Below, piece after piece: positions 3,360-58,081 of a stretch of 64,000 nucleotides of DNA; position 1 is the first letter of the stretch; every line of letters begins with the position of its first letter. The stretch lies in assembly GCF_019973615.1 (NCBI RefSeq), contig NZ_AP024238.1, forward strand, positions 682,001 to 746,000. Direction: 5' to 3'. Source of the DNA: Rhodoferax lithotrophicus. GTDB lineage: Bacteria > Pseudomonadota > Gammaproteobacteria > Burkholderiales > Burkholderiaceae_C. Position numbers and translations under genes: made by a program. The notes below the pieces were generated by a model. It was not told where the DNA came from. It was given only the letters and a program-made list of their open reading frames with translations, and ran no database searches.

Positions 3360-3497
3360 GCGCTCCGTGGCTGTTTATGTCTGTGCGAAGTTGAAGTCGC
3401 GCCAGTTCATCGTACTCTTGCCTTGCTGGCTGTCATGCATGCTGCTGGGCAACTGGTCACGAATAGTCTTCAAGCCCCCCTTTCGCACGGCCTTCAC

Positions 3498-35764: not shown

Positions 35765-36457
35765 CTATTCCACGACGAGTTGGTAACCCATTCGGATCAC
35801 CGTCTGGATGGGCGAAGAGCCATCGGACAACAAGCCAAATTTCTGGCGAATGCCGCTCACATGCACATCGATGCTTCGGTCAAAACGGCTCAAAGGGCGG
35901 CCCAGACCTTCTTCGCTGAGTTGCTGTTTGCTCACCGTCTCTCCGGCATGGCGCGCCAGCACTTCGAGCAGGCTGAACTCCGTGCTGGTGAGCGCCAGGT
36001 CCTTGCCAGCGCGTTGGGCACGCCGCTTTGCAGGCCATAAGGTCAGCGCGCCCACTGTAATGGGCACACGGGTGTCCTGCTTTTGGGACGGTGCGTTTTG
36101 CGAGCGTTTGAGAATGGCACGCAGCCGCGCAGCGAGTTCGCGCGGTGTGCAAGGCTTGGGGACGTAGTCGTCTGCGCCGAGCTCCAGCCCCATGATGCGG
36201 TCGGTGTCATCCCCTTTGGCGGTGAGCATCAGCACGGGCACAGGGCTGAGGGTGCGGATCTGCGTGAGGACTTGCATGCCATTGATGCCAGGCATCATCA
36301 CGTCGAGCACCACGATGTCCGGAGCGTCACCCAGTACGGCTTTCAGACCGGTATGCCCGTCGGTCGCGGCGCTGACGGAAAACCCGTCACCTTGCAGATA
36401 GTCGCGCAGCAGTTCCAACAATTCACGGTCATCATCAATCAAAAGAACCCGGGGCAT
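35765..36457 (-). CDS. cpxR: OmpR-family response regulator, CpxR-like
   Basis: 230 residues from ATG 36457 (MPRVLLIDDDREL); an upstream ATG at 36490 is possible. Phospho-Asp in IVVLDVMMPGINGM, then GLELGADDYVPKP and the winged helix LSEEGLGRPLSRFDRSIDVHVSGIRQKFG. These stretches follow E. coli CpxR closely. It pairs with the kinase downstream. A CpxR-type box 70 bases upstream suggests autoregulation. Confidence 0.85.
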   Translation of the reverse strand: MPRVLLIDDDRELLELLRDYLQGDGFSVSAATDGHTGLKAVLGDAPDIVVLDVMMPGINGMQVLTQIRTLSPVPVLMLTAKGDDTDRIMGLELGADDYVPKPCTPRELAARLRAILKRSQNAPSQKQDTRVPITVGALTLWPAKRRAQRAGKDLALTSTEFSLLEVLARHAGETVSKQQLSEEGLGRPLSRFDRSIDVHVSGIRQKFGLLSDGSSPIQTVIRMGYQLVVE

Positions 36458-36526
36458 GGCACAGAAGGCATCACAAAAGTGGAGATGCAAGGATAGTAAG
36501 CCAGCACCCGCTTTTACGACATCCCT

Positions 36527-36994: not shown

Positions 36995-37555
36995 ATGTCT
37001 ATGTCAATCAGTTCCGTGGGGAGCGCCAGTAGCGGCGGAGTCGACACATCCAAGATGGCCACCAAGATGGCCTCCAAGATGATGAGTGAACTCGATCCCA
37101 ACAACACCGGCAAAGTTACCAAGGATCAATTTGTTTCTGCCTTGACTGCCAAAGGCGTGTCCAGTGACGATGCCACAAATATGTACGACTCCATTGACAC
37201 GAAGCAAACCGGAAGCATTGGAAAGTCAGACATTGAAACCGCCATTAAAAGTGGCAACCTGACACCTCCTTCTGGAGGTCCTCGTGGTGCAGGCGGTCCT
37301 GGTGGTGCAGGCGGTCCTGGTGGCGCAGGCGGTCCTGGTGGATCAGGCAAACCGCAGGAGGCAAGCGGTGCGGGTGGAGCCAATGGTGCGAGCAGTTCTT
37401 CCACAACCTATGCTGCCGCCGACACCAACCAGGATGGTGTGGTTTCCAGCGAGGAAGCTGCCGTCTACGCCATCAAGCACCCGTCAGCGTCGAGTACAGA
37501 AAGCAACAAAACCGACCCGTCCAAGTTGGGCAAGAACGTTGATAAGCTGGTCTGA
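36995..37555 (+). CDS. EF-hand protein with Gly-Pro repeat linker
   Basis: 186 residues from ATG 36995, with AAGGAG upstream. Three EF-hand-like calcium loops: DPNNTGKVTKDQ and DTKQTGSIGKSD in the first half and DTNQDGVVSSEE near residue 141. Between them is a linker of repeated GGPGGA units (37269-37345). No classical signal peptide, although the N-terminus is Ser/Met-rich. Calcium binding is inferred; the function is unknown. The CpxR-type box upstream hints at an envelope-stress role. Confidence 0.75.
   Translation: MSMSISSVGSASSGGVDTSKMATKMASKMMSELDPNNTGKVTKDQFVSALTAKGVSSDDATNMYDSIDTKQTGSIGKSDIETAIKSGNLTPPSGGPRGAGGPGGAGGPGGAGGPGGSGKPQEASGAGGANGASSSSTTYAAADTNQDGVVSSEEAAVYAIKHPSASSTESNKTDPSKLGKNVDKLV
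37269..37345 (+). repeat. Short tandem repeat encoding Gly-Pro-rich linker
   Basis: About four units of roughly 18 bases, each encoding GGPGGA-like residues, inside the EF-hand gene. Unit number could vary between strains without breaking the frame. Confidence 0.65.
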
Positions 37556-37711
37556 TCGGGTTCCTGGCCAATAAACGCGGCCTCCTGGATGCCCTTTTTC
37601 AACCCTGGTTTTGAGTTTGATTTCCATCAAAAGTTGCGCAATGAGGGGTGGCGTTCGATCGTCACAAATGGTTACGATACTGATCAGCCATCAACACGAG
37701 AGGCCGGTTCT

Positions 37712-37945
37712 ATGACAAGACACATCGACAACCTTGAACGACTCCTTCATCGCTTTCAGGACTGTTTTGGAGACGATGATGAAATGGTTCTCCAGGTCAA
37801 GCAGGAAATAGAAGCTGAAAGAGCCAAGGAATGCCATCCCCATCGTTGGCGTGTTGGAGCCGTTTACCACTACCCCTCATTGAGGGCCGGCCGATGTGGC
37901 GCAAGTGATGGCCATCCAGTTGGCCGTGCTGGCCGACCTGCTTAA
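37712..37945 (+). CDS. Small hypothetical protein
   Basis: 77 residues from ATG 37712; the frame is open from 37589 but the more protein-like part starts here. Helical N-terminus (IDNLERLLHRFQDCFGDDDEMVLQVKQEIEAERAKE) with heptad-like leucines. I do not recognise the family. Its last bases overlap the convergent EEP gene. Confidence 0.45.
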   Translation: MTRHIDNLERLLHRFQDCFGDDDEMVLQVKQEIEAERAKECHPHRWRVGAVYHYPSLRAGRCGASDGHPVGRAGRPA

Positions 37946-38829
37946 ACCAGCTCAATCCATAGGGGCTGATGGTCTGAGGCCCGGCTGTTCAGGTTGACGG
38001 ACAGTGTCTGAACCCGGGGTACCAAAGACTGGCTGACGAACACATAGTCGCAGGTGATGGGCTCAGGGCCGTAGGTGCGGTCAAACAGCCGGAACGTGGG
38101 CGCATGGGGTGTTTGCCCCAGCACCAAAGGCCAGGCATCCTGCAAATGATCTGCTGCAATATTTGTAGCTGCTTGCGCAGGTATTACGGGCACTATAGGC
38201 CTAAATGGCTGTTGAATGGTGGCGTATTCGGGTGCACCGGGTTCAAAATTGAAGTCACCACACAAAATGGCATGCCGGGTGTGCGTTTTGCTCTGAAAAG
38301 GTGAGTGACTGTGGTCCGCCAGCGGTTGCGCCGCCGCCTGTTCGCAGGCCTGCATGTGCAGCGCTCGCAAGGCTTGGGCCTGGGCCATGCGCTGGCGTGC
38401 GGAATAAAACTCCAGATGGGTGGTCATGATGCGCACTGCGCCCAGCCTGGGGTCGGTCACGGTGACCTCTGTGCACATGCGCGGCATGCTGCGCACGCCC
38501 GCATCGGCAGGCCAGGGCAAGGGGTGGTGCTGCACGCTGGCCACTGGCAGCCGTGTGGCAATCAGATTGCCAAACCGCTGGCGTTGGCCCTGGGCATCAA
38601 ATTCGTCGACCGCTGCGCCAAAAAACACGGTGTAGCCGGGCAGCAGGGCCTGGAGTTGTGCCGGTTGATCACCTGGGTGGCCCGGCATGGTCTCAAAGCC
38701 ACAGGCGATTTCTTGCAGGCACAACACGTCAAAGTCGACCATGGCACGTGCCTCGCTGACGATGCGTTTGAGGTTGACGCGGCCATCCAGGCCGCAGCCC
38801 CATTGGGTGTTCCAGGTGATGAGTTTCAT
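37942..38829 (-). CDS. Endonuclease/exonuclease/phosphatase-family hydrolase
   Basis: 295 residues from ATG 38829 (MKLITWNTQWGCG). EEP-fold motifs: NTQWG, CLQEIACG, AILCGDFNFEPG and ASDHQPLWIEL (terminal SDH). The metal-dependent hydrolase may act on phosphodiesters or phosphoinositol-type substrates. It closes the phoD-ugp operon, 10 bases after ugpE. Residues about 210-221 are encoded by a dispersed repeat (38166-38201). Confidence 0.8.
   Translation of the reverse strand: MKLITWNTQWGCGLDGRVNLKRIVSEARAMVDFDVLCLQEIACGFETMPGHPGDQPAQLQALLPGYTVFFGAAVDEFDAQGQRQRFGNLIATRLPVASVQHHPLPWPADAGVRSMPRMCTEVTVTDPRLGAVRIMTTHLEFYSARQRMAQAQALRALHMQACEQAAAQPLADHSHSPFQSKTHTRHAILCGDFNFEPGAPEYATIQQPFRPIVPVIPAQAATNIAADHLQDAWPLVLGQTPHAPTFRLFDRTYGPEPITCDYVFVSQSLVPRVQTLSVNLNSRASDHQPLWIELV
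38166..38201 (+). repeat. Dispersed repeat, copy F (inside the EEP gene)
   Basis: TAGCTGCTTGCGCAGG ... CACTATAGGCC, 36 bases. On the minus strand it is translated as part of the segment PIVPVIPAQAATNIAADHL, between the EEP core motifs. Confidence 0.65.
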
Positions 38830-38839
38830 GTGATCCACC

Positions 38840-39691
38840 TCATTTGATCCCCGCCCGCATGAAGCTTTGTACAAACTGGCGCTGAAACAGCAAAAAGGCG
38901 ATCAGCAGCGGGGCTGAACTCAGCAGCGTGGCTGCGGTGATGATGGACCAGTCAATACCCTGATCCACCGATGAAAAAATCTGCAAACCCACGGTGAGGG
39001 GGCGTGCATTGACGCTGTTGGTCACGATCAGCGGCCAGAGGAAATTATTCCAGTGAAAGCTCACCGACACCAGCGCAAACGCGGTGTAGACCGGTTTGGC
39101 CAGCGGCACGTAGACCCGCCACAGGGTTTGCAGGGCGCTGGCCCCTTCAACCCGCGCCGCGTCATCCAGCTCTTTGGGGATACTCATGAAGGTCTGGCGC
39201 AGCAAAAAAATGGCAAAGGCCGAGGCAAAGTAAGGCAGGCCGATGGCGGGCAGCGAATCGATCAGGCCCACAGTCGCCATGGTTTTGTAGTTTTCCACCA
39301 GCAAGATGTCGGGCATCACCATCAACTGCACCAGCACCAGGGCAAAAGCCAGGTTGCGGCCCCGGAAGTGGTAGCGGGCAAATGCATAGGCGGCCAAGGT
39401 GGCCAGCAGCAATTGCGCAGCCAAAATCATGGCCACCAGCAAGGTGGTGTTGAAAAAGTAGCGTGCAAACGGCGCGGCCAGCCAGGCACGGCGGAAGTTG
39501 TCCAGCGTCAGCGGGGCCGCAAGCTCCAGCCGGGTGGCGAATTCAGCGGGGTGAAACGCCGTCCACACCGCATACAGCAGCGGCAGCATCCACAACAGGG
39601 CCAGCAGCCAGGCGGCCAGCGTGTCCAGCCAGCCGGGTTCGTTAAAAGCCAGGCGTTGGGGGGCGCTGTGGGTGTTGACCGGTAAGCTCAT
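38840..39691 (-). CDS. ugpE: ABC transporter permease, UgpE-like
   Basis: 283 residues from ATG 39691; the upstream frame overlaps ugpA and is unlikely. Six membrane segments and the permease signature DDAARVEGASALQTLWRVYVPLAKP. ATGA overlap with ugpA. Part of an importer for sn-glycerol 3-phosphate or related phosphodiesters; the exact substrate is inferred from neighbours. Confidence 0.86.
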   Translation of the reverse strand: MSLPVNTHSAPQRLAFNEPGWLDTLAAWLLALLWMLPLLYAVWTAFHPAEFATRLELAAPLTLDNFRRAWLAAPFARYFFNTTLLVAMILAAQLLLATLAAYAFARYHFRGRNLAFALVLVQLMVMPDILLVENYKTMATVGLIDSLPAIGLPYFASAFAIFLLRQTFMSIPKELDDAARVEGASALQTLWRVYVPLAKPVYTAFALVSVSFHWNNFLWPLIVTNSVNARPLTVGLQIFSSVDQGIDWSIITAATLLSSAPLLIAFLLFQRQFVQSFMRAGIK

Positions 39692-40587
39692 TGGTAATGC
39701 ACCTTGCGGTCCAGCACAAAAAACTGCAGCAGGGCCATACCCACCAAGATGCTCACCAGCACCACGGTGATGGCGGCGGCATAGGCCGTGTCCCAAAAGC
39801 TAAAACCGACCTCGTACAAATAAAACAGCAGCAGGGTCGAGGCGTTGTCCGGCCCGCCACGGGTCAGCACAAACAAATGATCCACCATGCGAAAGCCGTT
39901 GATGAAGGCATTCACCAGCACAAACACGGTGGTCGGCATCAGCAGCGGCCACTGCACGCGCCAGAAAAATGTCCAGCGTGAGGCGCCTTCAATGGCCGCC
40001 GCCTCGCGCAGGCTGGGGTTTTGGCTTTGCAGCGCGGCCAGGTAAAAAATCATGAAGAAACCGGCCTCTTTCCACACCGCCACCAGCGTCACTGCGCCCA
40101 GCGCGGTGGACGGGCTGCCCAGCCAGTTGTGTGAAGGCAGGCCCAATGCGGCGCTGATCTGCTCCAGCAAGCCATATTGCGGGGTGTAGAAAAACAGCCA
40201 GATGTTGGCCACCGCAATCATTGGCAGCACGGTGGGTGTGAAATAAGCCATACGCAAAAAGGCCCGGCCCAGCATACGCTCGTTGACCCACAGCGCCATC
40301 ACCAAAGCCAGGCTGATCGACAGCGGAATGGTGACCCCGGCAAACCACAGGTTGTTGCGCATGGCTTTCCAGAACACCGGGTCGGCCACCATCACCGCGT
40401 AGTTGTCCAGCCCGACCCAGACGCTGGCACGAGCGCCTTTGGGGGTGGAAAAGAAGCTGTCCACCAGCGTCGAGACAATCGGCCAATGGGTAAACGCCAG
40501 CAGCAAGACCAGGGCGGGCAGCAGCATCAGCCAGATGGATGCCGTGCCCAGATCATTGGAAGATGCTGCAGGTTTCAAGGGATGCAC
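39688..40587 (-). CDS. ugpA: ABC transporter permease, UgpA-like
   Basis: 299 residues, six membrane segments with EAAAIEGASRWTFFWRVQWPLLMPTTVF as the EAA loop. First segment LLPALVLLLAFTHWPIVSTL. Begins 3 bases after ugpB ends. Pairs with the UgpE-like permease. Confidence 0.86.
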   Translation of the reverse strand: MHPLKPAASSNDLGTASIWLMLLPALVLLLAFTHWPIVSTLVDSFFSTPKGARASVWVGLDNYAVMVADPVFWKAMRNNLWFAGVTIPLSISLALVMALWVNERMLGRAFLRMAYFTPTVLPMIAVANIWLFFYTPQYGLLEQISAALGLPSHNWLGSPSTALGAVTLVAVWKEAGFFMIFYLAALQSQNPSLREAAAIEGASRWTFFWRVQWPLLMPTTVFVLVNAFINGFRMVDHLFVLTRGGPDNASTLLLFYLYEVGFSFWDTAYAAAITVVLVSILVGMALLQFFVLDRKVHYQ

Positions 40588-40590
40588 CGC

Positions 40591-41895
40591 TTATTTGTAG
40601 GCCCGCAAGATGCGGTCAGCCTCCATCTGGGCCTCTTTCATGGCTTGCGCCGGGCTCTTGTTGCCGGTCAGGGCGGCTTGTAAACCGTCATTCAGGGCTT
40701 TGGTGACGCGCTGGTTGTCGTGGGTGGACAGCTCTGCCACCGATGCCGGCAATTGGTCACGCGCCACCAGAGCAGCGGGAAAGTCTTTGCCGTAGGCCTT
40801 CAGGCTCGGGGTGTTGTAGGCGGCTTGTGATACCGCCACGTAGCCGGTGTCGATGCTCCACTGTGCGGCACGCTCGGGCTGGGTGATCCATTGGATGAAC
40901 TCAAACGCCGCCTGTTGCTGCGCCGGGCTGGATTTCTTGAAGATGTAGAAGTTGCCGCCGCCAGTGGGTGAGCCCTTGCGCACGTTGCCCGGAATCATGC
41001 CGACACCAAAGTCAAACTTGGCGTTTTTCTTGATGTTGGTCAGGTTGCCGGTGGTGGTGAAAATGATGGCGGCTTTTTTCTCGAAGAAGTCTTTCGGTGT
41101 GGTGCCCCACTCGACCACGCCCGGTGGGTGAATGCCGGCCTTGCCCAGGTCAACCCAGTATTGCAGTGCTTCAATCACCTTGGGGTCATCAAACTTGACG
41201 GCGGTGCCCGCCTCGTTGGCCAGAAGGGCCCCGTTGGTGGTGGACAGGGTCTGAAACAGCCAGTACGGGAAGCCGCTGGACGGAATCTGCACCCCCCAGG
41301 TGCTGACTTTGCCGCTGGCATCTTTTTGCGTCAGCTTGGTGGCGGCGGCTTTTAACTCGGCCCAGGTGGCGGGGGCTTGGTGGGGGTCAAGACCGGCCTG
41401 CTTGAACAGGTCTTTGTTCCAGTACATAACCACGGTGGAACGCTGGAACGGAATACCCCAGGTTTTGCCGCCGGCCTGGCTGTTTTGCATGAAGGCCGGG
41501 TAGAAGCTGCCCAGCCAGGCCTTGTCTTGCGGCGTTTTGACAAAGTTGTCAAACGGCACCACGGCATCTTCGTCGATCAGGGTGAACATGTCGGTGGACA
41601 GCAGCACCGAGGTCACCGGGGGTGTGCCGGATTTGTGCGCCGTCAGCGCCTTGACGATACTTTCCTGGTAGCTGCCGGCGTAGATCGGCGTGACCTTGAT
41701 GGCGGGGTGCTCCTTCGTGAAGGCGGCGGCAAAGTCGTCAATCGTCTTGGTGATCGGGCCACCCACGGCCACCGGGTAAAAAAACTGCACTTCGACCGGT
41801 GTTTGTGCATGTAATTTGCCTGTAGCGCCCGTTAATAATGCGCAAGCAGCTATTAAATGTGTAGTTGTTAACTGAAGAAAGGTTTGGCGTTTCAT
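40591..41895 (-). CDS. ugpB: ABC transporter substrate-binding protein, UgpB-like
   Basis: 434 residues, periplasmic. The type-1 binding-protein fold (VEVQFFYPVAVGGPITKTIDDFAAAFTKEHPAIKVTPIYAGSYQESIVKAL) fits UgpB. The signal peptide MKRQTFLQLTTTHLIAACALLTGATGKLHAQ has its hydrophobic part encoded by a dispersed repeat (41818-41852), an unusual origin for a signal sequence. Substrate inferred as glycerol 3-phosphate or a phosphodiester. Confidence 0.87.
   Translation of the reverse strand: MKRQTFLQLTTTHLIAACALLTGATGKLHAQTPVEVQFFYPVAVGGPITKTIDDFAAAFTKEHPAIKVTPIYAGSYQESIVKALTAHKSGTPPVTSVLLSTDMFTLIDEDAVVPFDNFVKTPQDKAWLGSFYPAFMQNSQAGGKTWGIPFQRSTVVMYWNKDLFKQAGLDPHQAPATWAELKAAATKLTQKDASGKVSTWGVQIPSSGFPYWLFQTLSTTNGALLANEAGTAVKFDDPKVIEALQYWVDLGKAGIHPPGVVEWGTTPKDFFEKKAAIIFTTTGNLTNIKKNAKFDFGVGMIPGNVRKGSPTGGGNFYIFKKSSPAQQQAAFEFIQWITQPERAAQWSIDTGYVAVSQAAYNTPSLKAYGKDFPAALVARDQLPASVAELSTHDNQRVTKALNDGLQAALTGNKSPAQAMKEAQMEADRILRAYK
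41818..41852 (-). repeat. Dispersed repeat, copy G (in the ugpB signal peptide)
   Basis: On the minus strand TAGCTGCTTGCGCATTA ... GGGCGCTACAGGC, translated about IAACALLTGATGK. A clear family member by its ends and length. Confidence 0.65.
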
Positions 41896-41910
41896 GGTGG
41901 TTTTTCTGGT

Positions 41911-42957
41911 TCAAGAGGGGGTTGATGCAGGGCTGTGGTGGGTGTGAATTCGCTGGCCAGCGGAATCAAAGCCGTGGGCCTCGGCGGGGCTCCAGTGCAG
42001 GCGAACCTGATCACCTGCGGCGGCGTGGTGTTGCCCGTCCAGGCGTACCCGCAGGCTCTGGTTGCCGATGTGGCAGTGCAGCAGCAGGTCGGCCCCGAGG
42101 TATTCCAGGCTTTGCACCACGGCGGGGAGTCCGCCAGGGTGCAGGTGAATCGCCTCCGGGCGCACACCCAGAATGGCGGCATCCAGCGGAATGGCAATCT
42201 CGCTACCGGCGATGCGGCCCTGCTCAAGGGTCAGCAAATTCATCGGCGGGGTGCCGACAAAACGCGCCGCAAAGGTGCTGGCCGGTTGGGTGTACAAGTC
42301 GCGCGGGGTGCCCACTTGCTCGATACGCCCGCGGTTGAGCAGCACCACCTGGTCGGCCATGCTCATGGCCTCGGACTGGTCGTGGGTCACATAGACCACG
42401 GTCAGCCCGAGTTGGCGCTGAATGTCACGCAGCTCGCGGCGCATGTCCTGGCGCAGTTGTGCATCCAGGTTGGATAAGGGCTCGTCCATCAGGCACACCT
42501 TGGCTTGCGCCACCAGTGCACGGCCCAGCGCCACCCGCTGCTGCTGGCCGCCCGAGAGCTGGCTGGGGCGGCGCGCCAGCAGGCTGCTCAGGCCCAGCAG
42601 GGCCGCGGTTTCTTTCAAGCGCCGGGTGATTTCGGCGGCCGGTGTTTTGCGCACCGACAGGCCAAACGTGATGTTGTCGGCCACCGAGAGATGCGGGAAC
42701 AGTGCATAGTTCTGGAACACCATGGCCATGCCGCGCTGGGCCGGTGACACCTGCGTGATGTCGCGCCCATCCATCAGCACCCGCCCGGTGCTGGCCGACT
42801 CCAGCCCGGCCATGATGCGCAAGGTGCTTGACTTGCCACACCCCGAGGGGCCGAGCAGCACACAAAACGTGCCTTGTTCAATCCGCAGGTTGATGGCTTC
42901 CAGTGCGGTGCTGCTGCCCCACGATTTGGAAACCCCCACCAGTTCAATGGCTGACAT
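41911..42957 (-). CDS. ugpC: ABC transporter ATPase, UgpC/MsmX-like
   Basis: 348 residues. Walker A GPSGCGKS, signature LSGGQQQRVALGRAL, Walker B VCLMDEPLSNLD, switch His VYVTHDQSEA, then a C-terminal regulatory (TOBE-like) domain. Powers the UgpAE permeases. It stands 33 bases after phoD and 15 bases before ugpB, so the operon reads phoD-ugpC-B-A-E. Confidence 0.88.
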   Translation of the reverse strand: MSAIELVGVSKSWGSSTALEAINLRIEQGTFCVLLGPSGCGKSSTLRIMAGLESASTGRVLMDGRDITQVSPAQRGMAMVFQNYALFPHLSVADNITFGLSVRKTPAAEITRRLKETAALLGLSSLLARRPSQLSGGQQQRVALGRALVAQAKVCLMDEPLSNLDAQLRQDMRRELRDIQRQLGLTVVYVTHDQSEAMSMADQVVLLNRGRIEQVGTPRDLYTQPASTFAARFVGTPPMNLLTLEQGRIAGSEIAIPLDAAILGVRPEAIHLHPGGLPAVVQSLEYLGADLLLHCHIGNQSLRVRLDGQHHAAAGDQVRLHWSPAEAHGFDSAGQRIHTHHSPASTPS

Positions 42958-42990
42958 GGAGGCGGTTGTGGGTCGTTCTACACGCCTTCA

Positions 42991-44805
42991 TCAGGCGTAG
43001 GTAATGGCACCAGTGGCAGCCGCCACGGTGATAGTTTTGCCCACGGTGGCGCTGTAGCTGGTGGACTTGACGGTGCTCATGTACACATAGTCACCCTTGA
43101 CGGCATCGGCGGTGACGGTCAGGGCCAGATAACCGCGTTGGCTGCTGTCGGTGTAGTTCAAGTCATTGATCAAACCCAGACCCGCACCCATGGCGGCGGC
43201 ACCCAGTTGGGGGACCAAGGCTGTGCCATCCAGCGCACTGGCCAGGCCACCCAGACCCACACTCTCAAACCCGGGGGAGGTCACCGAAGACGCGGCAAAT
43301 TCGACCCCCACTTTGTCATCGGCCAGGGTGGTCAGGTTGGCAAACCAGGCGTTATGGGAGTCGCCCGAGAGCGCCACCAGCTTTTTGCCCTGGGCCTTGA
43401 CGGTTTGCAAAATGGCTTCGCGGTTGCTGGGGTAGCCGTCCCAGGCATCCAGGTTGTAGGGCAGCAGCGGGTTGCTGGTGGTGTTGAGCAAAGCGGTTTG
43501 TGTGGCGGTCAGCGCCGGGCCACCCAAGGCTGCACCTGCACGCGCCCCTTTGGCTCCCAGGTAGGCGGTGATGGCGGTTTGCACCGCTGTGAGATTGGCC
43601 GGGGTGGGGCTGGCAGTGGCGACGGCCTGGGCCTGCAAGACCGAAGCGGGGAACCACATACGCGCCATGATGTCCTGGTTGCCCAGCAGTTGCCAGGTGG
43701 CTTTGGAGGTTGCCATGCCGTTGGTCAGCCAGCTTTGCTGCGTGCTGCTGATCATCTTGCGGGTCGCATCGGAGCCATTGGCCAGAGCGGTGGCATAGCG
43801 CGTGAGGCCACCATCGGCATCCCCAAAGCTGTCGTACTGCTGGTCGCGGCCTTCGATACGGGTGTCGAGCATGTGCAGGGTGAACAGGTTGCCAAAGTCA
43901 AAGCTGCGGTAAATCTTCAGCACATCACCACTGGCATCGGTGCGGATCGGCATCCACTCGTGGTATACCCGGGCGGCGATGTTTTTGCGGGTTGTCCAGT
44001 CTCCTTGGGTCGCGGTATGGTGATTTTCTGCGCCGTTGACATAGGCGTTGTTGGCGAATTCATGATCGTCCCAGACTGTGATCCAGGGCATTTTGGCGTG
44101 TAAGGCCTGCAAGCTCGGGTCTGACTTGTACAGGGCGTAACGGGTGCGGTGATCATTCAGGCTGACCATGTCGTTGGCCGGGGTGATGACCCGGTTCAAG
44201 GACACGGCGCTGGTGCCGGTCAAGGCATCGGTGTTGCCAAATTTGGCGGGGTCGGCGCCGTATTCGTACAGGTAGTCCCCCAGATGGATGGCGTATTGCG
44301 CGTCCGACTTGGCGGCTGCGTCATAGGCGTTGAAATAACCCGCTGAATACAGTGCGCAGGAGAACACGGCCAGCTTGACACTTGCCACATTGCTGGCGGG
44401 CAGGGTGCGGGTGCTTCCCACGGTGGAGGCTGCACCGGTATCGTCCATAAAACGGTAAAAGTAGCTGCTACCTGCCGTCAAACCGGTGGCATCCACTTTG
44501 GCGGTGAATGCGTTGGCTTGCGTGGCGGTGACGCGCCCGCTGCTGACCACTTTGCTGAAGCTGCTGTCACTGGCCACCTGCCAAGTCAGCGCCACCGGGT
44601 CGGTGCTGCCAGCGATCTGGGCGTGGGTCCACAAAATCACCCGGTCAGTCAGCGGGTCGCCACTGGCCACGCCGTAGCTGAAGGTGGCCGGGCGGGTATC
44701 TGAGCCACCACAAGCTGCCAATGAGCCGACCACGCCTATGGCCAGGGCGGAGGAGGCTGATTTGACGAGGAAATCGCGCCGACTGTTGTGCGTGTGAGGT
44801 ATCAA
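42991..44805 (-). CDS. phoD: Alkaline phosphatase D (PhoD-like), Tat-exported
   Basis: 604 residues from TTG 44805, chosen because AAGGAG precedes it by 6 bases. A twin-arginine signal then sits at the start (NSRRDFLVKSASSALAIGVVGSLAAC). Ca/Fe phosphatase domain motifs: GVASGDPLTDRVILWTH, AIHLGDYLYEYG, VWDDHEFANN and ALSGDSHNAWF. It hydrolyses phosphomono- and diesters in the periplasm. It is first in the Pho-box-controlled operon. Confidence 0.9.
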   Translation of the reverse strand: MIPHTHNSRRDFLVKSASSALAIGVVGSLAACGGSDTRPATFSYGVASGDPLTDRVILWTHAQIAGSTDPVALTWQVASDSSFSKVVSSGRVTATQANAFTAKVDATGLTAGSSYFYRFMDDTGAASTVGSTRTLPASNVASVKLAVFSCALYSAGYFNAYDAAAKSDAQYAIHLGDYLYEYGADPAKFGNTDALTGTSAVSLNRVITPANDMVSLNDHRTRYALYKSDPSLQALHAKMPWITVWDDHEFANNAYVNGAENHHTATQGDWTTRKNIAARVYHEWMPIRTDASGDVLKIYRSFDFGNLFTLHMLDTRIEGRDQQYDSFGDADGGLTRYATALANGSDATRKMISSTQQSWLTNGMATSKATWQLLGNQDIMARMWFPASVLQAQAVATASPTPANLTAVQTAITAYLGAKGARAGAALGGPALTATQTALLNTTSNPLLPYNLDAWDGYPSNREAILQTVKAQGKKLVALSGDSHNAWFANLTTLADDKVGVEFAASSVTSPGFESVGLGGLASALDGTALVPQLGAAAMGAGLGLINDLNYTDSSQRGYLALTVTADAVKGDYVYMSTVKSTSYSATVGKTITVAAATGAITYA

Positions 44806-44957
44806 AGAGAACTCCTTGGGGGAAAAGTTAAAACCTGTGCCCAGATTGGCCCACGCCGGGGCGATGACCCCATGATCAACGCAGCGGGCCAGCGTCCTGG
44901 TCAATCACTTGGGGGTGTGGTCTGCGCCGTCGCTTGCGGCAAGTATTCATGACCTGC

Positions 44958-44996
44958 GTGACACGTCAGTGACATCGTGGTGACATGTCCGTGACA
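44958..44996 (-). promoter_or_regulatory. Tandem Pho boxes upstream of phoD
   Basis: Four direct repeats of TGTCAC on the minus strand (GTGACA at 44958, 44969, 44980 and 44991), at exactly 11-base intervals. Two adjacent 22-base Pho boxes for PhoB. They lie about 155-190 bases upstream of the phoD start. Confidence 0.85.
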
Positions 44997-45024
44997 GGTC
45001 TTCCATGGGCAAGAAACCGCTGCA

Positions 45025-45231
45025 TCAAGGCTTGGCAAGTCCTGGTTTGCATTCAAAGCAAAGGAACATGAGTGCGGTCAGATAGCGTTTGTAAATGCCA
45101 TTTCGACGCAGCTTGTGCTGGCCACATTTCATACAACTCATGGTCTCGCCTGACCCACTTATCCCTTGAAAGGGTGAGCCGTTTTGTTTGGCTGTGTAAC
45201 GCAAGCCGGTGGGGGAGATTTGAGTTGTCAT
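45025..45231 (-). CDS. Small zinc-ribbon-like protein
   Basis: 68 residues from ATG 45231 (ATG 45243 is possible). Cys pair CMKC near residue 33 and CFEC near residue 58, the layout of a small zinc ribbon. The preceding segment (LSPTGLRY-like, SPTGLRYTAKQNGSPFQGISGSGET) resembles a family of small betaproteobacterial proteins. Function unknown. Pho boxes lie downstream of its stop, so it is not controlled by them. Confidence 0.5.
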   Translation of the reverse strand: MTTQISPTGLRYTAKQNGSPFQGISGSGETMSCMKCGQHKLRRNGIYKRYLTALMFLCFECKPGLAKP

Positions 45232-45392
45232 GGTGTGTGGCATTAAGGGCTCGTCATCGGGTTGAAATCATCAATCATGACGGGGTAGCGTTTCACTTTT
45301 GTGACGTGAACGCGGACATCCATCCGGCATACCTGCTGTTCACAAAGTTGTCATGGAAATCTGCCACGCTGGAGTCCCACCCTAGCGGAAAG

Positions 45393-45743
45393 ATGAACGT
45401 GCGTACAACTTCGATGATCCCAACTGTTCCCTCCAACGACATGGTCGATTTACACCGCGTCATCCAGCAACTGGCTGAACGTTGCCAGCTGGACCTTGGC
45501 AATCCATTTGAGGTCAGGCTTTTTCGGGAAGGTGATTTCTCAGTGGCCAACATGCCGGTTCATGACGCGTCAAGCTGCCAGACGCTGCGTACCATGCTCA
45601 CACTACAGCTGCGGCTGGAGTCGAGCAGCAGCGAGGACATGGGTATTGAAGGTGTGAACTTTTTGTGGCACCAATGTCGTCACTTGCTTGGCAAATTCTG
45701 TACGTCTTCCGAAGTGGTCGAAACACCCCCTCGCGTCATGTGA
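45393..45743 (+). CDS. Hypothetical protein
   Basis: 116 residues from ATG 45393 (ATG 45414 is an alternative); a much longer upstream frame looks artificial. Helical N-terminus (MVDLHRVIQQLAERCQLDLGNPFEVRLFREGDFSVANM) and a Cys-containing C-terminus. No recognised family, signal or membrane segment. Divergent to the zinc-ribbon gene. Confidence 0.4.
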   Translation: MNVRTTSMIPTVPSNDMVDLHRVIQQLAERCQLDLGNPFEVRLFREGDFSVANMPVHDASSCQTLRTMLTLQLRLESSSSEDMGIEGVNFLWHQCRHLLGKFCTSSEVVETPPRVM

Positions 45744-49503: not shown

Positions 49504-50253
49504 TTACATTCTGGTTGTCCAGCTTGTTTGGATAATGTGTTGCTCCACTTTTGTAAACACCAATCCTTCTCCCAAGGGGTTTTGGTATAGATCATGGATC
49601 GGCTTTTCTTTGAAGTTCTTGACGACAAACAGAAAATACCGATCCCCCATTCTGGACGCTATAGCATGCTCTTTTTCGGTGAGCGTTATATTTCCACGCT
49701 TATCGTTGAGTCCCTTAACTTCCACCGCCAAGGAAACGCTGGGAGAGTAAAGCTGGAAGTCGAAACCGCAACCGAGTTTGGTGGTATCTCTGATGTTGAG
49801 ACCATCAAAAGTTGGAATGCTCTTGAAGGCGTTCATGAAATACTGCTCGGCGGCTTGACCCGTGAGCAGCCGCTTGGCGAAAGATCCATCCGTATCACAG
49901 CCTGACTCTGCGACTTCCTCGATGAGCAGATCGAGATCGTGCTCCTTGTACAGGATTTGCTTCAATAAACTCGTGAAGTTTTCCAAGTCCAACCCGCCAA
50001 AACTGTCATAAATTTTCTTGCAATATTCACGCATCGGTCTTTGATGCCAGCCTTTACGCTTATTCGGAAAAAGCGGATCAAACTCGTCTCTGTAATTCTT
50101 GATTGATCCAGGGCGAACACCAAGCGTCAACCCAATCACATTGAAAGCCTCGGTAAATCCACCGAAGCCAAATGTTCTCAATCCTTCCCCATCAAACTTG
50201 GAGAAGTACAAACCAGCCAAAATCGATTTTTCTCTGACGGGAAGATCATGCAT
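49504..50253 (-). CDS. DUF3883-like restriction/nuclease protein
   Basis: 249 residues. The C-terminal DFQLYSPSVSLAVEVKGLNDKRGNITLTEKEHAIA matches the DUF3883 nuclease pattern, with the D...EVKG core of PD-(D/E)XK folds. The N-terminal part (RTFGFGGFTEAFNVIGLTLGVRPGSIKNYRDEFD) may contact DNA. The start overlaps the stop of the HindVP-like gene. It is part of a more AT-rich island. Confidence 0.75.
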   Translation of the reverse strand: MHDLPVREKSILAGLYFSKFDGEGLRTFGFGGFTEAFNVIGLTLGVRPGSIKNYRDEFDPLFPNKRKGWHQRPMREYCKKIYDSFGGLDLENFTSLLKQILYKEHDLDLLIEEVAESGCDTDGSFAKRLLTGQAAEQYFMNAFKSIPTFDGLNIRDTTKLGCGFDFQLYSPSVSLAVEVKGLNDKRGNITLTEKEHAIASRMGDRYFLFVVKNFKEKPIHDLYQNPLGEGLVFTKVEQHIIQTSWTTRM

Positions 50254-51355
50254 GGTTCAAACATGCTTTGATACTGTCTGAGAAGACTGCCTCAAAACGC
50301 CGCTCCGGGCTGAGGAATTTTTGCCCACCGCCCAAAATAATGTGCTTGATTTCATCTTTGGCGATGATCGGCTTGGCGAGTCGGGCACACGCCATCAGCT
50401 CGCGCGAACGGGTTCCTGAAATCGCAAATTCTTTGTCATTCTGGTTGTCAAACGTCATGCCGTCATAAATGGGGGCCTGAAAAACCTTGTCTGACTTGGA
50501 TCGTTCATATAAAAACCGCGTCAACCGCAGCGTGGCGCGGCCATATCTGGAGATGGCATTGGTATCGCGTGGCTTGCGGACGGAGTCCAGAAACAGATGC
50601 GTCAGCGCAAAATCACTCCAGACGAAGATGTCCAGACAATGATCTGCCAGAACGGGCGACTTTCCTACCGTTTTCCAGATCGGCTGCATCAGCAGTGGTG
50701 ACTGCAAATCTTTGAATTCAGTCAAAAACAGCTCCAGCGCAGCAAGCGCTTTGCCGACGATGGGTAGCATTTCGGCTTTGGAATCCCAACTGCGGACACG
50801 AGCAAAAACGGGCTCGAATATCTCACGCACACGCACACGCACACGCACACGCACACGCACACGATGCGCATCCACCGCCCGTGCCATTGATAACGCCATG
50901 TAGCGGGTGGTGGCAGAACGAATCACCAGCTCGGCACCGTACTTGTCTTCGGGGCCAGCTTCTGTGGTGTTGTCTGGCAAAGTGGTCAGCTTGATCTCAA
51001 TCGGGCGGAGTTGTTGGATCGGATCACCTTTACCCACCACCAGATCAATCGCGGGTAACTCGTCGTGAACGAACGTTCTGAAAGGATCAAAGCGGGTTTC
51101 AAACGAAAAATGCAGTTGCTCGTTGGGCAAGGTGCTGCCAAACAGCTCGGTCACCGCCAGTTCAGTCACTTGGGTATGGTCGGAGTCCTTGAATTTCACA
51201 TACATCAACGGGTGTGATTGCGAGCGCATGTAGCAGGCCAGTGCCACCGGAAACGCCGAATTGAATTGATTCTTGCCCCAGTAATAAGCATCTGAAAAGT
51301 TCCGGTTACTGCGGGAAATTCCAAATAGTGCAGGGGGTTGGGTGATGTTCATCAT
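50246..51355 (-). CDS. HindVP-family type II restriction endonuclease
   Basis: 369 residues. Family features: start PPALFGISRSNRNFSDAYYWGKNQFNSAFP, a PD-(D/E)XK-like core (AIDLVVGKGDPIQQLRPIEIKLTTLPD), and TSRELMACARLAKPIIAKDEI at the end. HindVP cuts GRCGYC in Haemophilus; the specificity here is not established. A hexamer microsatellite (50825-50863) encodes a VR dipeptide array near residue 170. The gene appears intact although its methyltransferase partner is only a remnant. Confidence 0.82.
   Translation of the reverse strand: MMNITQPPALFGISRSNRNFSDAYYWGKNQFNSAFPVALACYMRSQSHPLMYVKFKDSDHTQVTELAVTELFGSTLPNEQLHFSFETRFDPFRTFVHDELPAIDLVVGKGDPIQQLRPIEIKLTTLPDNTTEAGPEDKYGAELVIRSATTRYMALSMARAVDAHRVRVRVRVRVRVREIFEPVFARVRSWDSKAEMLPIVGKALAALELFLTEFKDLQSPLLMQPIWKTVGKSPVLADHCLDIFVWSDFALTHLFLDSVRKPRDTNAISRYGRATLRLTRFLYERSKSDKVFQAPIYDGMTFDNQNDKEFAISGTRSRELMACARLAKPIIAKDEIKHIILGGGQKFLSPERRFEAVFSDSIKACLNHA
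50825..50863. repeat. Hexanucleotide microsatellite (ACGCAC) in the HindVP-like gene
   Basis: Six full and one partial copies of ACGCAC. Read on the minus strand as GTGCGT, encoding repeated Val-Arg. The unit is a multiple of three, so length changes keep the frame. Confidence 0.85.
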
Positions 51356-51425: not shown

Positions 51426-52073
51426 TCAAGGCGCGTATTTGGCCAGAAACCCGCGCAAGTCCTTGAACTCCGGCATACGCTCGGTGAGTGTGTCGTGATC
51501 CCAGTCCCACCATGCGGTGGCCTCCAGCGCCTGGGCAATGGCCTTGGGAAAGCGCTGGCGGATCAGCTTGGCGGGCGCACCTGCGACGATGGCGTAGGCC
51601 GGCACATCTTTGGTCACCACCGAGTTGCTGCCCACTACTGCACCATGGCCAATGTGCACGCCGGGCATGATCACCACGCCGTGGCCGATCCAGGTGTCGT
51701 GCCCAATCACCACGCGCTGGCGGCGACGCCAGGCAAAGAAGTCGGCATCGTCCTGCTCGGCCATGCCGTACATCGTGGGTCGGTAGACAAAGTGGTGCAG
51801 CGTGGGCCGCTCCATCGGGTGAAAACCGGGGTTGACACGCACCATGTTGGCAATGTTGGCAAACTTGCCAATGTCGGCCGACATCAGGTCGCAGAAATGC
51901 TGCACGTAGGCGTAGTCGTCCAGCAGGCAGTCTTCCATGCGGGTCTGATCACCGACCTGGGTGTAGCGGCCAAAGCGGCAGTCGCGCACGATGGCGCTGG
52001 CTGACAGCGTGGGCTCCAGCCCCAGGCGGGCGGGCTGTGGCAGGTTGTGGGCGGCAATGTGGGTGTGGCTCAT
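51426..52073 (-). CDS. Hexapeptide-repeat acyltransferase of phosphonate loci
   Basis: 215 residues. Left-handed beta-helix (SASAIVRDCRFGRYTQVGDQTRMEDCLLDDYAYV) and active-site region IGHDTWIGHGVVIMPGVHIGHGAVVGSNSVVTKDVPAYAIVAG. Resembles the transferase family found at the end of C-P lyase operons; the acceptor is not known. Follows phnM after 71 bases. Confidence 0.85.
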   Translation of the reverse strand: MSHTHIAAHNLPQPARLGLEPTLSASAIVRDCRFGRYTQVGDQTRMEDCLLDDYAYVQHFCDLMSADIGKFANIANMVRVNPGFHPMERPTLHHFVYRPTMYGMAEQDDADFFAWRRRQRVVIGHDTWIGHGVVIMPGVHIGHGAVVGSNSVVTKDVPAYAIVAGAPAKLIRQRFPKAIAQALEATAWWDWDHDTLTERMPEFKDLRGFLAKYAP

Positions 52074-52087
52074 GAGGATGGGGTGTT

Positions 52088-52134
52088 GTAGGAGCGGCGG
52101 CAGCCGCGAATATCGCGCCTTGCGGCGCTCATAC
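52088..52134 (+). repeat. REP-like repeat downstream of phnM
   Basis: GTAGGAGCGGCGGCAGCCGCG followed by TATCGCGCC ... GCGCTCATAC. The right half recurs inside phnI (56363-56386) with only two mismatches in 24 bases. Confidence 0.6.
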
Positions 52135-52144
52135 GGGGCACGTT

Positions 52145-53287
52145 TCAGAACGCCCGTTGGCCCGTCCGCCAGGTCTCCAGCACCAGCGGCATGCCGACAC
52201 GGTTCATGCGCACCCGCAACAGGTCGGCCCGCTGGCCCAGCGCAATCTCGCCCCGGTCTTGCAGGCCAATGGCACGGGCCGGGTTGAGTGTGACGGTGCG
52301 CACCGCCTTGGGCAGCGACCAGCCGTCCAGCGCAGCCAGCATGTAGGTGGCCATCAGCAGGCTGCTGGGCACGTAGTCCGACGAAAAAATGTCCAGCAAA
52401 TCCAGCTGCGCCAGCTCTGCGGCGGACACATTGCCCGAGTGAGAGCCACCCTTGACCATGTTCGGCCCGCCCATGATGATGGCCATGCCCGCAGCGCGTG
52501 CCGCCTGCGCCGCTTCAACCGTGGTGGGGAACTCGGACATGGCCACCCCCTCGGCCACGGCCAGTGCAATGTCGCTGAGCAGTGTGTCGTCATGGCTGGC
52601 CAGAGGCAGACCACGTGAGCGGCATTCGCGCACAATTTCAACCCGGTGTGGCAGAGAAAAGGCTTGCTGGTCGGCCTTGCGCTGGGCGATCATGGCCTCG
52701 AAATCGGCATCGTTGTAGCTGCCGTTGCGCTCGGTGTAGCGGCGGTAGGTGACCATGTCGCGCCACTGGCGCTGGCCGGGGGTGTGATCCATCATGCTGA
52801 CCAGGGTCAGCAGCGGGTCATCGGCGTATTCGTGAAACACCTCCAGCATGTCGGGGGCAGAGAGTTCGCAGCGCAGGTGCAGCAGGTGTTCCACCCGCAT
52901 CAGGCCTTCGTCGCGGCACTGGTGCAGGGCGGCAATCGAGGTGTGCTGGGTTTTGCTGCGTGCGCCGTCGTCGTCCAGGTCACCAATCACCACCGAATCC
53001 AGCACGGTGGTGATACCTGCCGCTGCGCACTGGGCATCGTGCACCGTCATGGCGGAATGGGCGTTCCACAACACGCCGGGGCGCGGTGACAGGTGTTTCT
53101 CCAGGTTGTCGGTGTGCAACTCCACCAGGCCGGGCAGCAGCCAGTCGCCACCCCAGTCCTCGGCACCGGGTAACGCGGTGGAGCCGGTGTCTATGCAGCG
53201 GATGATGCCGTCTTCCACAATCAGACAGCCGGTGAATTCGTCGTCAGCGGTGACGATACGGGCGTTGCTCACAATACGTTGAGTCAT
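52145..53287 (-). CDS. phnM: RPnTP diphosphatase PhnM
   Basis: 380 residues. Amidohydrolase-type TIM barrel: VELHTDNLEKHLSPRPGVLW metal motif, ASHDDTLLSDIALA, and GGPNMVKGGSHSGNVSAAEL. It converts alpha-D-ribose 1-methylphosphonate 5-triphosphate to the 5-phosphate in the C-P lyase pathway. Starts 18 bases after phnL. Confidence 0.94.
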   Translation of the reverse strand: MTQRIVSNARIVTADDEFTGCLIVEDGIIRCIDTGSTALPGAEDWGGDWLLPGLVELHTDNLEKHLSPRPGVLWNAHSAMTVHDAQCAAAGITTVLDSVVIGDLDDDGARSKTQHTSIAALHQCRDEGLMRVEHLLHLRCELSAPDMLEVFHEYADDPLLTLVSMMDHTPGQRQWRDMVTYRRYTERNGSYNDADFEAMIAQRKADQQAFSLPHRVEIVRECRSRGLPLASHDDTLLSDIALAVAEGVAMSEFPTTVEAAQAARAAGMAIIMGGPNMVKGGSHSGNVSAAELAQLDLLDIFSSDYVPSSLLMATYMLAALDGWSLPKAVRTVTLNPARAIGLQDRGEIALGQRADLLRVRMNRVGMPLVLETWRTGQRAF

Positions 53288-53305
53288 GGCGGTATTCCTT
53301 GAAGT

Positions 53306-54004
53306 TCAGAGAGAGTTTCGGTGTTGTTCCACGTCAAAGCATCGTGTGGCTACGGCCTGGCGCACTTCGTCGTCATGAAAAATGCCCACAATGGCGCTGC
53401 CTTGTGCGCGGGCGGCGTGGATCAGCTCGACCACCACGCGCCGGTTGTCACCGTCGAGCGAGGCGGTGGGCTCGTCCAGCAACAACACCGGCGCTGCGCT
53501 GATCATGCCGTGGGCGATGTTGACGCGCTGCTGCTCACCGCCCGAGAAGGTGGCGGGTGGCAAGTGCCACAAATGCTCATGCAGGTTCAGGCGTTGCAAC
53601 CAGTGCGCGGCCTGTTGGCGGGCTTCTGCCGCACCCACCCCCAGGCGGCGCAAGGGGTCGGCCACGATGTCGAGCGTGGAGACCCGTGGGATCACGCGCA
53701 GAAACTGCGACACGTAGCCCAGCGTGCGCCGGCGCACCGCCACCACCTCACGCGGCGCGGCCTGCGACAGATTGAGCCAGTCCCCGGCGTGGCGAATTCG
53801 CACCGCGCCGCTGCTGGGCGCGTAGTTGCCATACAGGCAGCGCAGCAAAGAGCTTTTGCCGCTGCCGGAGTGGCCGGTGAGCGCCAGGCATTCGCCAGGC
53901 TGCACGCTTAGATTGATGCCAGAAAACACCGGCAGTTGCAGGCCGCCGCGCCCGTGCAGCGTGAAGGTTTTGGACAGGCGATGAGTTTCTATGAGTGCAG
54001 TCAT
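53306..54004 (-). CDS. phnL: C-P lyase ABC-like ATPase PhnL
   Basis: 232 residues. Walker A GHSGSGKS, signature FSGGEQQRVNIAHGM, Walker B VLLLDEPTASLD. A soluble ABC protein that binds the C-P lyase core. Overlaps phnK by four bases. Confidence 0.93.
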   Translation of the reverse strand: MTALIETHRLSKTFTLHGRGGLQLPVFSGINLSVQPGECLALTGHSGSGKSSLLRCLYGNYAPSSGAVRIRHAGDWLNLSQAAPREVVAVRRRTLGYVSQFLRVIPRVSTLDIVADPLRRLGVGAAEARQQAAHWLQRLNLHEHLWHLPPATFSGGEQQRVNIAHGMISAAPVLLLDEPTASLDGDNRRVVVELIHAARAQGSAIVGIFHDDEVRQAVATRCFDVEQHRNSL

Positions 54005-54807
54005 GGGGTCAGTACCGAGGAAACAAGCAATTGGGTATAGGGGTGCTGGGGGTCGTCCAGCACGCGGTCGGTCAGGCCTTGTTCCACCACCTGGCCGTCT
54101 TTCATGACCAGCATGCGCTGGGCCAGCAGGCGGGCCACGGCCAGGTCGTGGGTGACCACCACGGCGGCCAGTTGCAGCTCATCCACCAGCTCGCGCAGCA
54201 GGTCGAGCAGGCGGGCCTGGACTGACACGTCCAGGCCGGTGGTGGGCTCGTCCATGAACACCAGGCGCGGATGCGTGACCAGGTTGCGGGCAATTTGCAG
54301 GCGCTGCTGCATGCCGCCCGAGTAGGTGGCGGGCAGGTCGTCAATGCGCCCGGTGTCGAGCTCCACACGCTGCATCCAGGAGACCGCTTCACTGCGCAGC
54401 TTGCCATAGTGGCGTGCGCCCAGGGCCATCAGGCGTTCACCCACATTGGCCCCGCCCGAGACGTTCATGCGCAGGCCGTCACGCGCGTGTTGCTCCACAA
54501 AACCCCAGTCGGTGCGGGCCAGCCAGCGCAGGCGGGCTTCTGACAACTCGGCCAGATCGACCAGGCCGCTGGCTTCGTTGACGGATTCGGTTCGCACGTC
54601 GTAATGCACCGAGCCTTGGTCACAGGCCAGGCGTGCCGCCAGCAGGCGCAACAGCGTGCTTTTGCCCGAGCCCGATTCGCCCACCACCGCCAGCACTTCG
54701 CCGGGGTAGAGGTCAAAGCTCACATCGCGGCAAGCCCAGCGTGGCTGGCCTTGGTGCACAAAGGCCTTGCCCGCTTGGCGGACAGATAGCAACACAGGTG
54801 GCTTCAT
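54001..54807 (-). CDS. phnK: C-P lyase ABC-like ATPase PhnK
   Basis: 268 residues from ATG 54807; the upstream frame overlaps phnJ and is not used. Walker A GESGSGKS, signature YSGGMQQRLQIARNL, Walker B LVFMDEPTTGLD. It associates with the PhnGHIJ core. Overlaps phnJ by four bases. Confidence 0.93.
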   Translation of the reverse strand: MKPPVLLSVRQAGKAFVHQGQPRWACRDVSFDLYPGEVLAVVGESGSGKSTLLRLLAARLACDQGSVHYDVRTESVNEASGLVDLAELSEARLRWLARTDWGFVEQHARDGLRMNVSGGANVGERLMALGARHYGKLRSEAVSWMQRVELDTGRIDDLPATYSGGMQQRLQIARNLVTHPRLVFMDEPTTGLDVSVQARLLDLLRELVDELQLAAVVVTHDLAVARLLAQRMLVMKDGQVVEQGLTDRVLDDPQHPYTQLLVSSVLTP

Positions 54808-56824: not shown

Positions 56825-56825
56825 C

Positions 56826-57883: not shown

Positions 57884-58081
57884 AGGTGTACATGCTATTT
57901 GCCAGAGTAAAAAACCACCCAGTGCAGGAGTCACAGACTGGGGTGAGATGGGTAGTTCACTACGCCAACATGAAGAATTTGTGACAGCCGTGAGTGAACT
58001 TTCCGAGTGAAAAAATGCTGATCAAGGTGTCAAGGATCGGTCAGATGGTGGTTTTTGAGAGACTTTTAACTATGTTTTTGA

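Follow-up and report, generated by a model that had tools for sequence, protein, structure and literature searches.

Which regulator would read the four TGTCAC repeats that stand before a phosphatase and transporter operon of Rhodoferax lithotrophicus, and which phosphorus compound would that operon bring into the cell? We analyzed a window of 64,000 nucleotides of contig NZ_AP024238.1 (positions 682,001 to 746,000), for which an earlier note had suggested degradation and import of phosphodiesters under phosphate limitation. With a probability of about 0.75, we read the locus as a PhoB-induced system for scavenging some phosphate ester that is not glycerol phosphate and that would be cut inside the cell by an EEP-family hydrolase. 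From the original suggestion, the degradation and import of a phosphorus ester is retained as the most likely role.

A perfect four-unit Pho array in front of phoD

The array lies on the minus strand at 44958..44996, where a pattern scan found four perfect TGTCAC units at an 11-base pitch, equal to two tandem 22-base Pho boxes; its minus-strand letters are TGTCACGGACATGTCACCACGATGTCACTGACGTGTCAC. The repeats and their exact spacing, as first reported, are thus confirmed. When the whole window was scanned for the TGTCAC-N5 x4 pattern, this was the single occurrence, with zero mismatches, and none of 100 dinucleotide shuffles matched even with three mismatches permitted. A three-unit TGTCAY-N5 pattern with at most one mismatch was found at four places in the genome (searched as one contig of 4,936,681 bases, 4.94 Mb), and the reversed pattern at none. 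Two of the four places overlap and are the window array itself; one of the others precedes ppk (polyphosphate kinase) and one precedes pstS. Of 399 genomes in the family, 2 have a perfect four-unit TGTCAY array, namely this one and G176, in which the array is a near-identical simple tandem repeat, approximately TGTCATTCGGA, at the 3′ end of an opposite-strand gene and not preceding a gene. The shuffles, the reversed-pattern control, and the 399-genome count led us to reject a chance origin and indicate that the array is real and rare in such clean form.

The description of the array as an unusually clean PhoB target applies to these four units; multi-unit Pho boxes as such were already known. 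An excerpt of PMC4415409 describes the PHO box as a pair of 11-base units and mentions that the Escherichia coli ugp promoter has several such boxes, so multiple units are not new. In our own scan of that promoter, the best run consisted of four degenerate units. Perfect multi-unit Pho arrays are uncommon.

Exactly 10 bases past the last unit, reading of the sequence revealed AATACT (44942..44947, minus strand), a putative −10 hexamer; the same hexamer recurs at the same distance in two related loci (L043 and L159, see below). In E. coli phoA, which served as our yardstick, the −10 element likewise follows the Pho units by ten bases. A consensus scan of 37400-45200 found no sigma-70 promoter with a −35 element. 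This absence is expected if PhoB units stand in for the −35 element, which they overlap or replace at PhoB-dependent promoters (PMC3348028, in excerpt). Between the array and a chemotaxis receptor gene lies a 223-aa ORF (45072-45743, plus strand) with no family match.

Predicted control by PhoB

The genome encodes one PhoB that scores above the NCBIfam cut-off (323.5 versus 296.2 bits). Its gene stands at the end of a stretch that starts with pstS, and the pstS promoter carries the three-unit box. The protein matches E. coli PhoB (229 aa) at 122 identical positions and keeps the residues that we take to be its DNA contacts, except for R200, which is replaced by K. The array, the distance to the −10 hexamer, the conservation of both in L043, the same motif at pstS and ppk, and these contact residues together support PhoB control well. 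We therefore consider it very likely that the operon is controlled by PhoB, a known kind of switch, and the claim of a PhoB target responding to phosphate limitation is borne out as far as sequence can speak to it. A different regulator of the OmpR/PhoB type might use the array instead: the genome holds 117 matches to the PhoB model, receiver domains counted, and one such regulator is encoded close by at 35765-36490. However, that regulator is without several of the presumed contact residues, and the phosphate genes pstS and ppk share the motif of the window, which makes this alternative very improbable.

Apart from the window array, the genome has six perfect two-unit places, two of them before phosphate genes (pstS and ppk), three inside coding sequence, and one facing no clear gene. 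Because only two of the six precede phosphate genes, a two-unit match alone is weak evidence. With one mismatch, the two-unit pattern occurs at 88 places and its reverse at 37, which makes any single weak site poor evidence as well. Sites in which at least one unit deviates by one base were seen at ppx and at genes for a GNAT-type acyltransferase, a metallophosphoesterase, a solute-binding protein, and glucose-6-phosphate dehydrogenase. A degenerate multi-unit Pho-like array was also observed at C1:1936756-1936783 (minus strand), before a metallophosphoesterase gene that is followed by an EAL/GGDEF gene.

Gene content of the operon

Six genes in the order phoD-ugpC-ugpB-ugpA-ugpE-EEP are tightly packed on the minus strand. 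The first, phoD (42991..44805), assigned by Pfam and sequence reading, encodes a PhoD-like phosphatase of 604 aa. Its likely start is a TTG at 44805 behind AAGGAG (44812-44817) rather than the first codon of the ORF at 44904. Pfam and NCBIfam then identify a ugpC-like ATPase with ABC_tran and TOBE_2 domains (41911..42957), and profiles, alignment, and structure comparison identify a ugpB-like solute-binding protein (SBP_bac_8; 40591..41895) with an altered ligand pocket. Two BPD_transp_1 permeases follow (Pfam and NCBIfam): a ugpA-like protein with a GTG start (39688..40587) and a ugpE-like protein (38840..39691), the ATG of which, at 39691, overlaps the ugpA stop. Last comes an EEP-family hydrolase (Exo_endo_phos; 37942..38829), recognized by Pfam, invariant motifs, and fold match, with its ATG 10 bases past the ugpE stop. 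The remaining gaps are 33 bases (phoD-ugpC), 15 bases (ugpC-ugpB), and 3 bases (ugpB-ugpA), and ugpA and ugpE overlap by 4 bases. No terminator stands out, 9 having been found against 8.5 expected. All gene types of the proposed phosphatase, importer, and EEP operon are thus present; the importer genes run C-B-A-E, not B-A-E-C.

The phoD product exceeds the gathering scores of both PhoD (320 bits) and PhoD_N (98 bits); against the NCBIfam equivalog for alkaline phosphatase PhoD (NF058638), it reaches 274 bits, below the cut-off of 1000. It bears SRRDFL and then LAAC, which we take to be a twin-arginine signal and a possible lipobox, as of a lipoprotein. The EEP product scores 55.3 bits with PF03372 (gathering score 24.5). 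Its residues N7, E40, H138, D192, N194, D261, D286, and H287, the SDH motif included, are invariant in 35 sequences and are presumably catalytic. No signal peptide was seen by eye in the EEP protein.

Elsewhere in the window, a few kb from the operon, lie the C-P lyase genes phnI, phnJ, phnK, phnL, and phnM, together with genes for a hexapeptide transferase and a GntR/UTRA regulator (PhnF-like), at 51426-57028 (minus strand) and 58256-59014 (plus strand); a weak Pho-like site (10/12) is present at 57970 on the minus strand. A HindVP-type restriction enzyme gene (49504-51355, minus strand) contains a CACACG hexamer run coding RVRVRV and adjoins a NOV_C-domain gene.

Conservation of the promoter and of the gene set

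The nearest relative is a Comamonadaceae metagenome contig (L043), which matches genome G022 in place. It carries four units in register, one with a single mismatch, followed by 10 bases and AATACT. Between the array and phoD it has a gene with a 5′-nucleotidase C-terminal domain (2191-4004), which is spread over more than one frame and may be broken by decay or assembly error. No trace of this gene was found by blastn in the window leader; across the stretch from promoter to phoD, only a 33-base promoter match and the phoD start region aligned. In L043, about 80 bases separate the array from a chemotaxis receptor gene, and therefore about 0.8 kb differs from the window there, in the region of the 223-aa ORF. 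Genome G010 (L159) has an 82% identical phoD that is preceded by a perfect two-unit box and, at the same 10-base distance, AATACT; the ugp set is absent from the 11.5 kb retrieved. The promoter thus seems to have come with phoD.

A search for EEP relatives yielded 49 loci. EEP stands directly behind ugpE in 29 of these, and the ugp set lies further off in 3 (L062, L074, and L075); 13 have at least 0.9 kb upstream and no ugp genes, 3 are too short, and 1 has no EEP match at threshold. These shares are not a census because the search picks up close relatives only. Because ugp genes are missing from 13 of the 45 EEP loci whose flank could be used, EEP also works elsewhere. In L074 and L075 (3611-8629), an M1-type aminopeptidase-like gene, named by eye from ORFs read in L074 only, lies between ugpE and EEP, and this gene is flanked on both sides by a repeated piece made of the ugpE 3′ end and the EEP 5′ end.

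Upstream of ugpC, we compared 27 loci (26 plus L165), several of which come from closely related species and are not independent. A two-unit site matching at least 10 of 12 positions was present within 300 bases in 22 loci, and one matching at least 11 in 13; as estimated from randomly placed intervals within each locus, the chance of such a site did not exceed 0.057 in any of the 22. TAnnnT follows exactly 10 bases past the site in 12 of the 27, and no box above chance precedes ugpC in 4 of the 27 (L077, L078, L079, and L090). Like the window, L043 has no box directly before ugpC because phoD sits there. Clusters of the ugpCBAE-EEP type recur across Burkholderiales, most of them with a Pho box of their own in front, and phoD heads the set only in the window and L043. 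In many Comamonadaceae loci (L047, L049-L051, L058-L062, and L068), the predicted −10 hexamer stops about 6 bases short of the ATG of ugpC; a −10 that close would leave the PhoB-controlled transcript with little or no leader.

Among 60 genomes of the genus, window-type UgpB (at least 53% identity) is found in this genome and 7 others, with a fragment in G061, and window-type phoD (at least 68%) in this genome and 7 others, with a partial copy in G042. At these thresholds, this genome and G022 alone possess the two genes together, and there they are adjacent. Because phoD and the ugp set occur apart elsewhere and are joined only here and in G022, two PhoB-controlled units seem to have fused into one in the lineage of the window. 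Neither a ugp-EEP nor a phoD-ugp operon appeared among the titles of a literature search with most subscription journals and regulon databases outside its scope.

An importer below the Ugp cut-offs with an altered pocket

All four importer subunits score below their NCBIfam Ugp cut-offs (UgpB, 183.6 versus 411 bits; UgpA, 122.6 versus 335; UgpE, 121.8 versus 297; UgpC, 406.6 versus 432). A canonical UgpB above its cut-off (596.6 bits) is encoded at C1:3514532. The sole GDPD of the genome (UgpQ type) sits at this canonical ugp locus, at 3518742, and the window set is without such a partner. A weak Pho-like site (10/12) precedes the canonical locus.

The ligand pocket was compared residue by residue across 25 proteins of the window UgpB type. 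In Phaeobacter UgpB, according to an excerpt of PMC12718374, Tyr64, Ser143, Ser266, and Tyr342 hold the phosphate, Glu88, Gly303, and Arg393 hold the glycerol hydroxyls, and Trp188 and Trp191 clamp the glycerol. These residues were carried to E. coli UgpB positions 65, 144, 270, 346, 89, 307, 397, 192, and 195 by motif and a near-constant offset (+1, later +4); the PDB titles W169S and W172S fit the E. coli Trp positions once a 23-residue signal is added. The phosphate residues of the window UgpB (Y76, S153, T281, and Y352) are kept or, for T281, conservatively changed from Ser. Across the type, the first Tyr is kept in all 24 scorable proteins and the first Ser and second Tyr in all 25, and the second Ser position holds T in 19, S in 5, and A in 1. 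At the glycerol end, all 25 proteins keep the Gly and none the Glu (S in 22, A in 3); the Arg position holds T in 19, R in 3, K in 1, and A in 2; and the second Trp is kept in none (Q in 20, M in 4, E in 1). The window protein itself has Ser for the Glu, Thr for the Arg, and Gln for the second Trp, with the Gly and the first Trp kept. A new Arg beside the phosphate Ser, R152, is invariant in all 25. The canonical UgpB of the same genome retains all E. coli ligand residues. With the phosphate residues conserved and the glycerol Glu, Arg, and Trp changed, we conclude that the phosphate-holding part of the pocket is preserved and the opposite end rebuilt.

A true Ugp system was rejected on three counts, namely the subunit scores, the changed glycerol residues, and the presence of canonical ugp with UgpQ elsewhere. 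On the same counts, the label UgpBAEC-type that the earlier note had used survives only in that relatives of all four subunits are present. The importer falls in a side branch of Ugp that is paired with EEP, and to call it a glycerol-phosphate carrier is probably wrong.

Candidate substrates

By sequence, the nearest PDB entry to the window UgpB is E. coli UgpB (3e-42), followed by a Thermus dinucleotide-binding protein (3e-27). The UgpB model (pLDDT 87.4) gave M. tuberculosis UgpB as the top row of the fold comparison (Z 45.6, rmsd 2.2, 387 aligned), tied within 1 with 7bvt and 6x84. The tied rows at the top are, besides M. tuberculosis UgpB, those of a maltosyl-maltose binder at Z 45.3 (rmsd 2.2, 383 aligned) and of E. 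coli UgpB at Z 45.0 (rmsd 2.2, 389 aligned); several sugar binders fell at 43.7 to 45.3 and the dinucleotide binder at 43.5 (rmsd 2.7, 380 aligned). Glycerophosphodiester, dinucleotide, and sugar binders are therefore tied by fold. The EEP model (pLDDT 92.6) had an uncharacterised protein of the EEP family as its closest fold match (Z 28.4, rmsd 3.3, 247 aligned); it also matched phosphatases, among them a mannosyl-6-phosphatase (4c1r; Z 25.7, rmsd 3.0, 235 aligned), as well as TDP2 (Z 24.9, rmsd 2.4, 224 aligned), nucleases, nocturnin, and sphingomyelinase.

These matches bear on three other readings of the substrate. The importer could be a true but diverged Ugp for glycerophosphodiesters or glycerol 3-phosphate, in which UgpB binds, for example, GPC and EEP replaces UgpQ. 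Both the closest sequence match and the top structural match, the latter a glycerophosphodiester binder (PMC8603345, in excerpt), point this way, as do the retained phosphate-holding residues. However, all four subunits fall short of the Ugp cut-offs, the glycerol Glu is lost throughout the type and the Arg in all but three proteins (the window's not among these three), and the canonical locus with UgpQ already fills the glycerophosphodiester role; we find this reading somewhat unlikely. Import of a sugar or sugar phosphate, with membership of the Pho regulon incidental, would suit the CUT1 family, whose members are mostly sugar binders, as well as the close scores of such binders and the EEP match to 4c1r. 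But the phosphate-holding Tyr, Ser, and Tyr occur in every scorable UgpB member, a Pho box stands before ugpC in most Burkholderiales loci, and EEP is the partner, all of which make a sugar importer very unlikely.

In the third reading, the operon scavenges nucleic acids: PhoD would act outside, joined in L043 by the nucleotidase-like protein, the importer would take up dinucleotides or nucleotide-like phosphodiesters, and EEP, with its nuclease-like fold, would act inside. The dinucleotide binder is the second-best PDB family by sequence and has K where R152 stands in the window protein (FNKS versus FQRS). Massilia L082 has a Pho-like site with three genes in a row behind it, the first nucleotidase-like, the second of 241 aa, and the third EEP, and this neighborhood, with that of L043, hints at nucleotides. 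In G002 (L169), a metallophosphoesterase comes after a window-type ugp set, which hints at no more than interchangeability of phosphoesterases. Against nucleic acids, the residue likeness to the dinucleotide binder is thin and its Z score no better than those of sugar binders, the L043 nucleotidase-like gene is broken over frames, and the EEP fold fits phosphatases and TDP2 as well as nucleases. We regard this reading as doubtful. A wider proposal for Burkholderiales, which we offer tentatively and judge rather unlikely, is PhoB-controlled import in which a phosphodiester other than a glycerophosphodiester enters intact (dinucleotides from extracellular nucleic acid are one possibility), through a Ugp-derived transporter with a new pocket and a dedicated EEP phosphodiesterase that cleaves inside the cell.

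Proposed model and comparison with known systems

In the model that we infer, phosphorylated PhoB would bind the four TGTCAC units at low phosphate as two head-to-tail dimers and recruit RNA polymerase to the AATACT −10 hexamer, 10 bases downstream, at a promoter without the usual −35 element. phoD-ugpC-ugpB-ugpA-ugpE-EEP would thereby be switched on as a single transcript. PhoD, exported and probably membrane-anchored, would cut phosphate esters outside the cytoplasmic membrane, and the CUT1-type importer, fed by the UgpB-like protein, would take up an ester other than glycerol 3-phosphate, most likely a phosphodiester. Cytoplasmic EEP would then cleave the imported ester and free its phosphate for the cell. 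The true substrate of the importer would extend the list of organic phosphorus sources usable by such bacteria. The promoter, as an exceptionally clean natural PhoB target, might serve as a reporter of phosphate limitation in freshwater and soil Comamonadaceae.

The individual proteins each have characterized counterparts. The phoD product shares the PhoD and PhoD_N domains with Bacillus subtilis PhoD (2yeq) and with 9uya, and the motifs of what we take to be the metal site are visibly kept in the alignment; it differs in falling below the NCBIfam PhoD equivalog cut-off and in being a possible lipoprotein. The window UgpB resembles the Thermus thermophilus dinucleotide-binding protein (7c0f series) in overall fold and in a basic residue beside the phosphate Ser, at about 23% identity; an excerpt of PMC12718374 extends the phosphate residues to the Thermus protein. 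M. tuberculosis UgpB (4mfi, 6r1b) shares the fold at about 22% identity, and its glycerol-side residues (Asp and Arg, in the same excerpt) are unlike those of the window protein.

As a whole, the operon invites comparison with the PhoB-controlled ugpBAECQ of E. coli for import of glycerophosphodiesters, which, in the excerpted sources, likewise combines a CUT1 importer made of UgpA/B/C/E relatives with an ester-cleaving enzyme in last place and several Pho units in the promoter. The window operon differs in its C-B-A-E order, in the replacement of the GDPD UgpQ by EEP, in the loss of glycerol residues from UgpB, and in the phoD gene in front; its Pho units are perfect, whereas those of the E. 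coli ugp promoter are degenerate. With phoA-type promoters of E. coli it shares TGTCA-type direct repeats at an 11-base pitch in the place of the −35 element and a −10 element ten bases on, and it differs from them in having two perfect boxes in tandem.
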